A stretch of DNA of 17,172 nucleotides from Nitrospirae bacterium RIFCSPLOW2_12_42_9 (GTDB taxonomy: Bacteria; Nitrospirota; 9FT-COMBO-42-15; HDB-SIOI813), in the NCBI GenBank assembly GCA_001805205.1, contig MHER01000048.1, positions 1 to 17,172 of the forward strand, read 5' to 3'. Under the pieces are notes generated by a model that was not told the origin of the DNA, did not search any database, and saw nothing but the letters and a program-made list of their open reading frames with translations. The translations under genes were made by a program, and so were the position numbers. Shown here one piece after another: positions 1 to 16,986 of this stretch; position 1 is the first letter of the stretch, and every line of letters starts with the position of its first letter.

Positions 1-56
1 CTAAAGGTCTGTCCCTACGTCTACTGTCCCTACGTCTACGCCCATTTTCATTGTCC
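1..56. repeat. Partial copy of the GTAGGGACAG element downstream of flgG
   Basis: On the minus strand this reads GGACAATGAAAATG, then two copies of GTAGACGTAGGGACAG-type sequence, then ACCTTTAG at the window edge. The same order (GGACAATGAAAATG, two GTAGGGACAGACC units) occurs at 15561-15629 in the second cheA, so this is the same element, continuing beyond the window. Confidence 0.8.
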
Positions 57-970: not shown

Positions 971-1030
971 GTAGGGACAAACCTTTAGGTTTGTCCGTTT
1001 CTTTGGACAGACCTAAAGGTCTGTCCCTAC
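971..1030. repeat. 60-bp nested palindromic element in the flgF-flgG spacer
   Basis: The 60 bp begin GTAGGGACAAACC and end GGTCTGTCCCTAC; the two halves are inverted copies around GTTTCTTT. Each half is itself a hairpin (GGACAAACC / GGTTTGTCC and GGACAGACC / GGTCTGTCC). It can fold as one long stem or two small ones. Copies occur at 15616-15676 and, in part, at the window start. Confidence 0.92.
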
Positions 1031-15105: not shown

Positions 15106-15108
15106 TCC

Positions 15109-15155
15109 CACCCTATCCCTCCCCCATTAAGAGGGAGGGAAGAAGGGAAGGGGTC
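15109..15155. repeat. C/G-rich palindromic repeat between cheB and the second cheA
   Basis: TCCCTCCC (15116-15123) pairs with GGGAGGGA (15133-15140), flanked by CCCACCCTA on the left and an AG-rich right arm. It shares its CACCCT / CCCTCCCCC plan with the element at 16927-16969. No T-run, so not a typical terminator. It fills most of the 66-base gap between cheB and the second cheA. Confidence 0.75.
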
Positions 15156-15171: not shown

Positions 15172-16986
15172 ATGGATTTAGAAAAATACCGTCAGATATT
15201 CCTTGATGAAACCACAACAGAGATCAATTCTTTAGAGAGTCGCATCCTCAGGATTGAAGCTGCAACTTCTTCAAATATTGGGGCAGATATTGAGGCTCTA
15301 AATGTAATCTTCCGTTTATTTCACAGACTGAAGTCATCTTCTGCAATGATGGGATTGAACAACTTCAGCGAGCTATCCCACCGCTCAGAGGACTTACTAT
15401 CCCTGATAAGAGAAGGCAAGATCGCGGTAGAAGGCTCTGTAATCAGTGTACTCCTCTCCGTTGTCGACACCATGCGTAATCTTATAAGAGAGACCGAAGG
15501 GGGCAACATCGAAGGGTTCAGACCGGTAGATTTACTGGCCAGGTTAAAGCAGATCTGCAAGGACAATGAAAATGTCATTCCCACGCAAGATGTAGGGACA
15601 GACCTCACACAAGATGTAGGGACAGACCTTCAGGTCTGTCCAAAAGAAATGGACAAACCTAAAGGTTTGTCCCTACGCAGAAATGACAATGGGTCAGAGG
15701 TATTTCCAGAGGCATCTTCCGATGTCTCCGCAGCCCAGATCCATCATGGATTAAATGTAATAAGGATTAACGAGGCCGATTTAAATGACCTGATAGATAT
15801 GGCCGGAGAGATGATATCAACCATATCAGAATTGGACAGGGTGATATCTTTTCTCGGGAATATCTCTTCATTAAAAGAGGTACAGGTTGTCAATCATAGC
15901 ATAAGCAGCATAAAACGTAAGGCAGATAAGCTTTCCGTTAATATACATAATCAGCTTCTCAGTTCAAAGATGGTCTCTGTAGGGGAGGTATTTGAAAGGC
16001 TCAAGCGTGTCACCCATGATCTCTCAGTCAGGACAAACAAATGTATGCAGGTAGTAATGAATGGTACTGAGATAGAGATGGACAGGGCTATTGTGGACAA
16101 ACTATTTAATCCCCTCCTCCATATTGTCAGGAATGCGGTTGATCATGGCATAGAAACCGATGAAGAGAGGTTAAAAAGCGGGAAGTCGCCAATCAGCACA
16201 ATTAATTTATCTGCCACCCTTGAAGGACATTTTGTAACTATCTCAGTTGAAGATGACGGAAGGGGAATAGATATAAACAGGGTAAAGAGAGAGATCCTGA
16301 AGAGGGGGCTCCTTGATGAAAAAGAGAGCGGGACCATTTCAGAGAATGAGATCATGAGTTATCTGTTTCAACCTGGTTTCAGTACTAAAGAGGAGGCGAC
16401 AGATATCTCAGGGAGGGGTATGGGGCTTGATATAGTTAAAGAAAATGTAAAGGAGCTCAAAGGGAAGATTGATATATCCACTAATAATGGATGCGGAACC
16501 ACTGTAAAGATCACAATCCCGCAGACATTATCAATTATCCGCTGCCTTCAGGTATTTATAGGTGCAGAGACCTATTCCATACCTATTGAATCCATTATGG
16601 AGATTATCCCTTATAATTCCAATGCACTCATGACTGTTCAGGAAAGACCTTTATTACTTTACCGGGGATCACCTGTGCCAATGGCCGACTTATATGAAAC
16701 CCTCAACATCCAATGCAGGAAGGAATCCATTACCTCTCATGTAATCATCGGTAATAAAGACCTGAGGATTGCAATCTCTGTCAGTGAAGTAGTTGGTGAA
16801 CAGGATATATTAATAAAACATTTAGGCGACTCTTTTCCCGGCGTAGCAGGCATACTGGGGGTTGGTATGCCGGGTGGCGGGAAGCTCTCTTTAATTATAG
16901 ATACAGATTTTCTATTGCAGCGCTATCACCCTTCCCTCCCCCTTAAGGGGGAGGGCTATGGAGTGGGTGCAGGAGTTTCCCTATGA
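15172..16986 (+). CDS. Second CheA-type histidine kinase, lacking P2 and carrying repeat-derived segments
   Basis: A 604-residue hybrid of CheA domains. The Hpt/P1 is at 1-105 with His51 in FHRLKSSSAMM; the usual HxxKG glycine is Ser here. A linker (about 111-195) stands where P2 should be, with residues about 134-173 encoded by a palindromic repeat (PTQDVGTDL, TQDVGTDLQVCP, KPKGLSLRRND). P3 is about 198-290, P4 ATPase about 298-452 (NPLLHIVRNAVDHGIE, DDGRGID, DISGRGMGLD) and CheW-like P5 about 455-584. The last 20 residues (from YHPSLPLKGEGYGVG) come from a second repeat. ATPase motifs are intact, so kinase activity is plausible. Without P2 it may transfer phosphate poorly to CheY/CheB or serve another receiver, such as that of the PP2C fusion (inference). 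The start at 15172 has only a weak ribosome-binding site. Confidence 0.9.
   Translation: MDLEKYRQIFLDETTTEINSLESRILRIEAATSSNIGADIEALNVIFRLFHRLKSSSAMMGLNNFSELSHRSEDLLSLIREGKIAVEGSVISVLLSVVDTMRNLIRETEGGNIEGFRPVDLLARLKQICKDNENVIPTQDVGTDLTQDVGTDLQVCPKEMDKPKGLSLRRNDNGSEVFPEASSDVSAAQIHHGLNVIRINEADLNDLIDMAGEMISTISELDRVISFLGNISSLKEVQVVNHSISSIKRKADKLSVNIHNQLLSSKMVSVGEVFERLKRVTHDLSVRTNKCMQVVMNGTEIEMDRAIVDKLFNPLLHIVRNAVDHGIETDEERLKSGKSPISTINLSATLEGHFVTISVEDDGRGIDINRVKREILKRGLLDEKESGTISENEIMSYLFQPGFSTKEEATDISGRGMGLDIVKENVKELKGKIDISTNNGCGTTVKITIPQTLSIIRCLQVFIGAETYSIPIESIMEIIPYNSNALMTVQERPLLLYRGSPVPMADLYETLNIQCRKESITSHVIIGNKDLRIAISVSEVVGEQDILIKHLGDSFPGVAGILGVGMPGGGKLSLIIDTDFLLQRYHPSLPLKGEGYGVGAGVSL
15573..15688. 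repeat. Palindromic element inserted in frame in the second cheA
   Basis: The ends form an imperfect inverted repeat: TGTCATTCCCACG (15573-15585) versus CGCAGAAATGACA (15676-15688), 10/13 paired. Inside are a 24-bp tandem duplication (15584-15607 and 15608-15631) and a 61-bp nested palindrome (15616-15676) running from GTAGGGACAGACC to GGTTTGTCCCTAC. The same element lies intergenically at 971-1030 and partly at 1-56. Here it contains no stop codon in the cheA frame. Confidence 0.88.
16927..16969. repeat. C/G-rich palindrome forming the 3' end of the second cheA
   Basis: A perfect 22-bp palindrome (16934-16955, centre TTAA, arms CCCTCCCCC and GGGGGAGGG) lies between outer arms CACCC (16927-16931) and GGGTG (16965-16969). 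It is read in the cheA frame as SLPLKGEGYGVG. It belongs to the same family as the spacer element at 15109-15155. Confidence 0.85.

Follow-up and report, generated by a model that had tools for sequence, protein, structure and literature searches.

Probable RPE-like protein-coding palindromic elements in Nitrospirota and their recurrent permissive landing sites

The second cheA gene (cheA2) of a Nitrospirota draft genome holds, between two domains of the encoded chemotaxis kinase, a palindromic repeat that also lies between genes. The question raised by this locus is how such a repeat came to lie in a reading frame, and whether the added segment would do anything there. The gene lies in the window, the whole stretch of 17,172 nucleotides that was analysed, which is contig C48 of a 208-contig draft of 2.05 Mb that is 85% complete (G000) and that named orthologues assign to Nitrospirota; all genomes compared are drafts. 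The best explanation, with a probability of roughly 0.84, is a mobile palindrome lying in frame in the disordered linker of CheA2, in a lineage that carries elements like the Rickettsia palindromic elements (RPEs), with the insert most likely acting as neutral padding. RPEs are reportedly the discovery of Ogata et al.

The repeat within the cheA2 reading frame

The gene and the domains of its product are as follows.

15172..16986, + strand: cheA2 (second cheA), 604 aa; open reading frame, with Pfam Hpt, HATPase_c and CheW over the cut-off
15187..15477, + strand: P1/Hpt domain, residues 6-102 (Pfam PF01627, E 6.3e-13)
15571..15765, + strand: P1-P3 linker, residues 134-198, predicted disordered (pLDDT <50, without secondary structure)
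15757..15933, + strand: P3 dimerisation region (H-kinase_dim), residues 196-254 (Pfam PF02895, 19.7 bits, below the cut-off of 23)
16111..16527, + strand: P4 HATPase_c, residues 314-452 (Pfam PF02518)
16543..16923, + strand: P5 CheW-like domain, residues 458-584 (Pfam PF01584)

Neither CheA of the window matches a P2 family in Pfam at E 0.1, the region between P1 and P3 included. The AlphaFold model of CheA2 was built from 28 aligned sequences; its mean pLDDT is 67 and its pTM 0.41, so only the disorder is taken from it. Predicted helices at residues 119-133 and 201-228 border the linker. The repeat and its other copies in the window comprise the following parts.

15559..15574, + strand: remnant of a larger element's left end, encoding KDNEN; same sequence as AAGGACAATGAAAATG in the left flanks of many copies in the window genome
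15582..15629, + strand: 24-bp tandem duplication with the first half-REP twice (DVGTDLTQDVGTDL); repeat search, 96%
15616..15641, + strand: complete GTAG REP, loop TTCAG (pattern match, 0 mismatches)
15642..15650, + strand: spacer separating the two REPs of the dimer (sequence)
15651..15676, - strand: inverted GTAG REP, second half of the dimer; its + strand encodes DKPKGLSL (pattern match, 0 mismatches)
971..1030, no strand assigned: intergenic copy of the same dimer, between genes named flgF and flgG in the earlier note (names taken as given)
6..18, - strand: partial copy, truncated by the contig end

The palindromic part occupies 15592-15676 and consists of a half-REP, a complete GTAG REP, a 9-bp spacer and an inverted REP, that is, a head-to-head dimer with one half duplicated; the GTAG tetranucleotide adjoins a short stem-loop (GTAGGGACARACCTNNAGGTYTGTCC). 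Two pairs of arms, 970-1004/15643-15677 and 1002-1034/15612-15644, are each 97% complementary, and therefore the element at 971-1030 and that of cheA2 are the same palindrome in opposite orientation. The reading frame crosses the repeat without a stop and yields the peptide ...NVIPTQDVGTDLTQDVGTDLQVCPKEMDKPKGLSLRRND...; segments encoded by inserts include DVGTDLQVCPK and PHPHLNPLPEGEE. An earlier note on this DNA had described an intergenic palindrome read in frame inside cheA2, and the open frame and the complementary arms bear it out. The 24-bp duplication that it reported is real (15582-15605 and 15606-15629, 96% identical). It had placed the repeat at 15573..15688; the left edge needs correction, because 15559-15574 likewise agrees with the sequence to the left of many other copies and the insertion therefore begins left of 15573.

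Stops interrupt five of the six frames of 15559-15676; the only one left open is that of cheA2. The commonest loop of the family, TT (56 of 83 REP matches, symmetrical REPs being counted twice), is a stop in the cheA2 phase; the cheA2 copy has TC (8 of 83).

Repeats do break assemblies here, and several copies in the window genome are found where a contig ends or next to runs of N, which could make the open frame an assembly artefact or the gene a decaying pseudogene. This is very improbable. An orthologue that is 99% identical (P0002), from a separately assembled contig that may or may not share a sample with the window genome, has the identical insert and small differences elsewhere (two residues ahead of the C-terminal tail); this speaks against the artefact that the earlier note had considered. 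The insert is also internal to a 17-kb contig, and cheA2 is a full reading frame whose Hpt, HATPase and CheW domains score over the cut-off.

Two further hairpins, both G+C-rich, are seen around the gene. One (16925-16970) corresponds to the C-terminal tail of CheA2 (HPSLPLKGEGYG; -33.6 kcal/mol for 16915-16986), a tail that is two residues longer in P0002. The other (15106-15155) lies immediately upstream of cheA2.

The GTAG family across the window genome

The GTAG family is mostly found between genes and at high copy number. A 26-bp REP pattern with up to 3 mismatches matches the genome 58+61 times and its reversed control 0+0 times; since symmetrical REPs match on both strands, these are not element counts. 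Counted with a 13-mer (up to 1 mismatch) in the window and 35 further stretches of the same genome, there are 46 element loci: single 30-bp REPs, dimers of 59-69 bp, a few clusters and some copies cut at contig ends. The commonest forms are inverted dimers of 62 and 69 bp with the tags outside. The cheA2 copy, preceded by 141 open codons and followed by 435, is alone in having more than 100 on each side. The genome-wide count of copies in open frames that the earlier note had proposed therefore makes the coding copy the exception, at 1 of 46. Other loci open into a downstream gene via leaders of at most 60 codons, which more likely sit upstream of the true start. A copy at a contig end (C161) is preceded by 203 open codons, and the contig stops there.

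Many of these copies are embedded in a larger repeat, whose left part carries ACAAAGGACAATGAAAAT and whose right part carries GGGGGATTTTCAGGTGAA. Where it contains the GTAG dimer, the larger element often ends at, or a few bases before, an apparent gene start, with the right end GGGGGGGATTTTCAGGTG (e.g. L072, C127:1223-1284; L060, C47:4744-4805; L078, C146:18377-18438; L086, C206:8139-8200). The element looks as if it supplied the ribosome-binding region of the downstream genes, which by eye resemble ribosomal protein, CheW, lyase and acyltransferase genes.

RAYT genes flanked by REPs are absent from this genome as assembled; a RAYT-like gene on C110 has no REP match on its contig. Since no flanked RAYT was found in a genome that is 85% complete, from which one may be missing, the family is termed REPIN-like rather than REPIN. 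The C110 reading frame (L089, C110:3856-4176) was named by eye from a Y1_Tnp match, and two further Y1 transposase genes lie on C73 and C44. As owner of the element the RAYT-like gene was rejected, there being no copies on C110. For the cheA2 element itself, the search tied no transposase to it and found neither a target-site duplication nor empty-site DNA; its near relatives were reached as proteins only.

GTAG-tagged REPs are known from other bacteria. In the main text of PMC3733652, such REPs and their head-to-head dimers (REPINs) are mostly intergenic, some lie in frame in open reading frames, the idea that flexible linkers tolerate intragenic REPs is already stated, and two Xanthomonas recB genes carry different REPs at about the same site. 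The elements described here share with them the GTAG tag, the short-loop stem and head-to-head dimers with the tags outside (PMC3733652); they differ in having no adjacent RAYT and in being embedded in a larger element. The sequence family of cheA2 does not appear in that main text (GGGACAGACC, 0 occurrences; Nitrospira, 0 occurrences). Small non-autonomous elements whose open frames are fused to genes also include the enterobacterial RU/ERIC elements and the Neisseria MITEs, fused in frame to reading frames according to passages of PMC2759123 and PMC2229807; by those descriptions, the present elements belong to other organisms and other element families.

A route to the present cheA2 gene can be proposed on these data. 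A non-autonomous palindrome, made of a GTAG-tagged head-to-head REP dimer and the remains of a larger MITE-like element, would have entered the disordered P1-P3 linker in sense orientation, in a phase free of stops. We infer that such elements are mobile and moved by a transposase, and that the insert is transcribed and translated as part of cheA2 and is neutral there. That the linker is floppy and that P1 requires no more than a tether may explain why the insert is tolerated.

Recurrent occupation of the CheA2 linker

Orthologues show what the linker looks like with and without the insert. The 42 orthologues compared (P0002-P0043) were taken before the E value drops from 1e-161 to 1e-99. Between the same end points, the linker has 67 residues in the window CheA2 and 40 in the nearest insert-free orthologue (P0003), a difference of 27. 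The earlier note had asked whether orthologues from genomes lacking the repeat carry the same segment; 10 of the 43 rows are insert-free, among them P0003 with 75% identity. The exact gap at residues 134-173 that it expected was not seen, because linker length varies in all orthologues.

Its suggestion that the repeat replaced P2 is rejected. The precomputed Pfam lists of the insert-free orthologues contain no P2 family, and their linkers measure 36-47 residues between aligned end points (7 measured), so P2 was most likely gone before the insertion. The other suggestion of that note, a neutral linker, is supported as probable.

Linkers were typed by eye in 43 rows including the query: 32 have repeat-like inserts of five types, 10 have none and 1 is truncated (P0041). 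The types are distributed as follows.

REPIN: 2 rows
PHPHLNPLPEGE: 1 row
PPLVQGG: 1 row
LPLEKGSKGG: 1 row
HPELVS: 27 rows

In a tree of 39 rows and 3 outgroups, with the linker excluded and the partial P0040-P0043 left out, the five types occupy different lineages, among which insert-free lineages are interspersed; for example, the insert-free P0008 is sister to P0005 with support of 100/96. Support is weak at the basal forks (83/52 and 92/26) and the outgroups sit on long branches, which leaves the root uncertain. This recurrence at one site, together with the persistence of the HPELVS type across 27 of 43 rows, is what would be expected if the insert were a selected functional module that either took the place of P2 or tunes phosphotransfer through linker length. 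Such a role is unlikely: insert-free orthologues lack P2 as well, the types differ in sequence, the segment is predicted disordered, and the same palindromes occur in many unrelated enzymes.

The repeat nature of the other inserts was assessed at several levels. At the DNA level, the genome of the same family but another genus (G005) has its cheA2 on a contig of 45,375 bases (C139; protein row P0006), and there the linker holds a nested palindrome of its own, with 66 BLAST matches in G005 at E 10. At the peptide level, the inserts of P0007 and P0005 match element peptides of the window genome in a way equalled by 0 and 2 of 500 shuffles; six insert-free linkers taken as controls gave 19, 67, 48, 498, 416 and 487 of 500. 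A codable-stem test on linker peptides supports the HPELVS type (0-2 of 100 shuffles in 3 rows); P0001 is weak (3 of 100), P0005 and P0007 give 17 and 40, and P0006 gives 96 despite its known palindrome, which makes the test low-powered.

Recurrence at this linker is therefore seen as DNA in two lineages only, and the other three types are peptide resemblances. DNA of orthologues beyond G005 was not found: a contig search returned 12 loci at only 30-39% identity, and a draw of 395 genomes of the phylum (query P0016, E 1e-120) matched in G000 and G005 alone. In relatives, other palindrome families would have entered the same linker independently, one at the least and probably four, perhaps because the site is permissive. 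A resident repeat might also have been swapped for another in some of these linkers.

Palindromic families kept inside genes

The family of the G005 linker is distinct from the GTAG family, whose pattern has 0 copies in G005. Allowing up to 3 mismatches, its 37-bp core is found 52 times in G005 and at most once in any of the nine other family genomes. Eighteen of the 52 are intragenic, the reading frame continuing on either side for 60 codons or more, or else as far as the stretch reaches, and all 18 are read in sense phase 0. For the whole element the count is 17 rather than 18 of 52, because the eighteenth (L099) falls to 57 codons after it. The whole element is open in frames +0, +1, +2, -0, -1 and -2 in 40, 29, 0, 20, 12 and 2 of the 52 copies, respectively; under proportional use of open frames, all 17 would fall in +0 with a chance of about 1e-7, copies being treated as independent.

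The hosts, by Pfam (cheA2 via the list of its orthologue), are cheA2, a CheA-receiver hybrid, CheB, a histidine kinase, MutS, an NAD-dependent DNA ligase, a UvrD-like helicase, a phosphoglycerate mutase, PEP carboxylase, a D-Ala-D-Ala ligase, an aminotransferase-class enzyme, a zinc dehydrogenase, a P-type ATPase, a CCG/Fe-S protein, a glycosyltransferase, an HI0933-like flavoprotein, a TPR protein and one without a family. The element lies between domains in CheA2, the CheA hybrid and CheB, and within a domain in several others.

This strict frame use bears on two other explanations. The palindrome might be retained for a hairpin in mRNA or DNA (attenuation, or a gyrase or nucleoid site), the peptide being a by-product; predicted folding is strong (-56 kcal/mol for window 15555-15700, -79 kcal/mol for the G005 linker) and start codons adjoin many copies. 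A hairpin alone needs neither one phase nor one orientation, yet all 18 intragenic G005 copies share both, and the cheA2 copy lacks the commonest loop, so the hairpin explanation has little probability. Alternatively, the segment might be skipped by the ribosome or spliced out and never reach the protein, which would make insertions in catalytic domains of housekeeping enzymes easier to tolerate; mitochondrial byps and inteins are precedents. Skipping would not require a segment to keep frame or avoid stops, whereas the intragenic copies that were found all have the same open phase. These counts take in open-frame copies only, so that out-of-frame insertions would escape, but just 1 of the 35 non-intragenic copies (L172) has reading frames of at least 80 codons entering from both sides on one strand (longest frames). 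Skipping is accordingly very doubtful. The long frames on either side of L172 sit in different frames.

Translated padding remains the preferred reading, and solved structures show where the inserts fall. In 6 of 6 enzymes compared, the element lies in an unaligned query stretch flanked by two aligned stretches.

Phosphoglycerate mutase: query 244-274 unaligned, chain 241/240, exact
Ligase: query 289-341 unaligned, chain 275/277
Aminotransferase-class enzyme: query 235-261 unaligned, chain 253/256
LipB: query 71-106 unaligned, chain 57/66
Ddl, two elements: query 153-216 unaligned, chain 137/151
MnmG: query 489-562 unaligned, chain 508/530

The first three cases are clean; in LipB, Ddl and MnmG, 8 to 21 chain residues are unaligned opposite the insert. 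The phosphoglycerate mutase (iPGM) has 547 aa against 514 in an 86%-identical homologue, and its segment is absent from 12 of the 13 closest other homologues aligned; P0247 has a different extra of 10 residues.

The elements in LipB and MnmG of the window genome belong to the TKDNEN family. Its left-end pattern (up to 1 mismatch) occurs 23 times in G000 and 33 times in G005. A long reading frame in sense phase 0 is found at 6 of 21 places in G005, 4 of 19 in G000 and 1 of 8 elsewhere; one of the G000 places has, in addition, an antisense frame that passes the filter. The exact pattern is present in 6 of 10 family genomes, with one match each in 6 of 385 other genomes of the phylum. With a consensus peptide as query, the 10 genomes of the family give at least 33 matches in G000 and at least 89 in G005 at E 10, in frames of every size and some with stops. 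Among 18 LipB homologues aligned and typed by eye, P0122 and P0123 have the G000 insert and 9 have none; other repeat-like segments occupy the same loop in P0125, P0126, P0127, P0132 and P0133, with short ones in P0129 and P0135. The 37-residue insert region is identical in L198 (G000 C196), P0122 and P0123, and the rest of P0123 is identical at 178 of 212 positions; constraint, local conservation and gene conversion are all candidate reasons.

These families invite comparison with RPEs, which passages of PMC2229807 and PMC10969869 describe, nearly half of them in open reading frames in R. conorii. As described there, RPEs and the protein-coding palindromic repeats of Wolbachia are palindromes of ~100-150 bp, with several families per genome, a recognisable peptide per family and a large share in frame in unrelated conserved proteins; the present elements are alike in these respects. 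They differ in phylum (Nitrospirota), in their G+C-rich or GTAG-tagged cores with shared TKDNEN...FSDE ends, and in the repeated occupation of one linker by different families; the likeness is one of description. Many in-frame copies in unrelated conserved proteins are found for the G005 family (18 of 52), not for the GTAG family alone (1 of 46), and a recognisable peptide in one frame is seen in 18 of 18. The resemblance to RPEs that the earlier note had drawn from the cheA2 copy is thus supported beyond its data.

The same two fractions agree with survival in frame: the GTAG dimer is closed in most frames and rarely in genes, in contrast to the G005 core. Elements would move, insert widely and persist in genes when orientation and phase yield a hydrophilic peptide at a tolerant site. 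The KPHPHLNPLPEGEEISLPFKGRVRVGMG family of G005 and the TKDNEN...GGFSDE family would be the RPE-like ones, kept inside genes in one frame that encodes such a tolerable peptide. A broader proposal, put tentatively and at slightly under even odds, is that a Nitrospirota lineage, outside Rickettsiales, hosts selfish palindromes with a sequence moulded to give a tolerable hydrophilic peptide in one frame, which would allow them to reside within proteins, and that a few permissive sites (the CheA2 linker, the LipB loop) are reoccupied by different families, recording insertion pressure against protein tolerance.

Searches of an open-access library turned up, by title and abstract opening, no Nitrospirota or CheA case, and so far as they show, the lineage, the element families, the strict frame use and the recurrent occupation of the CheA linker and LipB loop are new. 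A phenomenon of similar scale in a Nitrospirota family known from drafts makes mobile DNA testable as a general route by which peptides are added to proteins. One linker reoccupied by different families is a natural experiment on insertion-tolerant protein sites, and odd extra protein segments in this group may be translated repeats, not domains.

Several minor observations concern other repeats. In a further genome (G001), where the intragenic candidates L125, L128, L134 and L144 were compared with Pfam only, a histidine kinase (L125:1339-2736) seemingly holds two different repeats in tandem near its ATP-binding domain, PPLIGKTGEGKGG and then NVGTDLQVCP. Other G001 frames passing a looser filter (40 and 20 codons) have no Pfam family where scanned, and L130 and L145 were dropped as one-mismatch half-sites that are not REP-like by eye. 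The D-Ala-D-Ala ligase of G005 (L119:1029-2225) carries two different element families in tandem, both in frame. On G005 contig C125, a related palindrome variant, differing from the core by 3 mismatches, occurs 11 times within ~25 kb (6219-31334; L163, L164).
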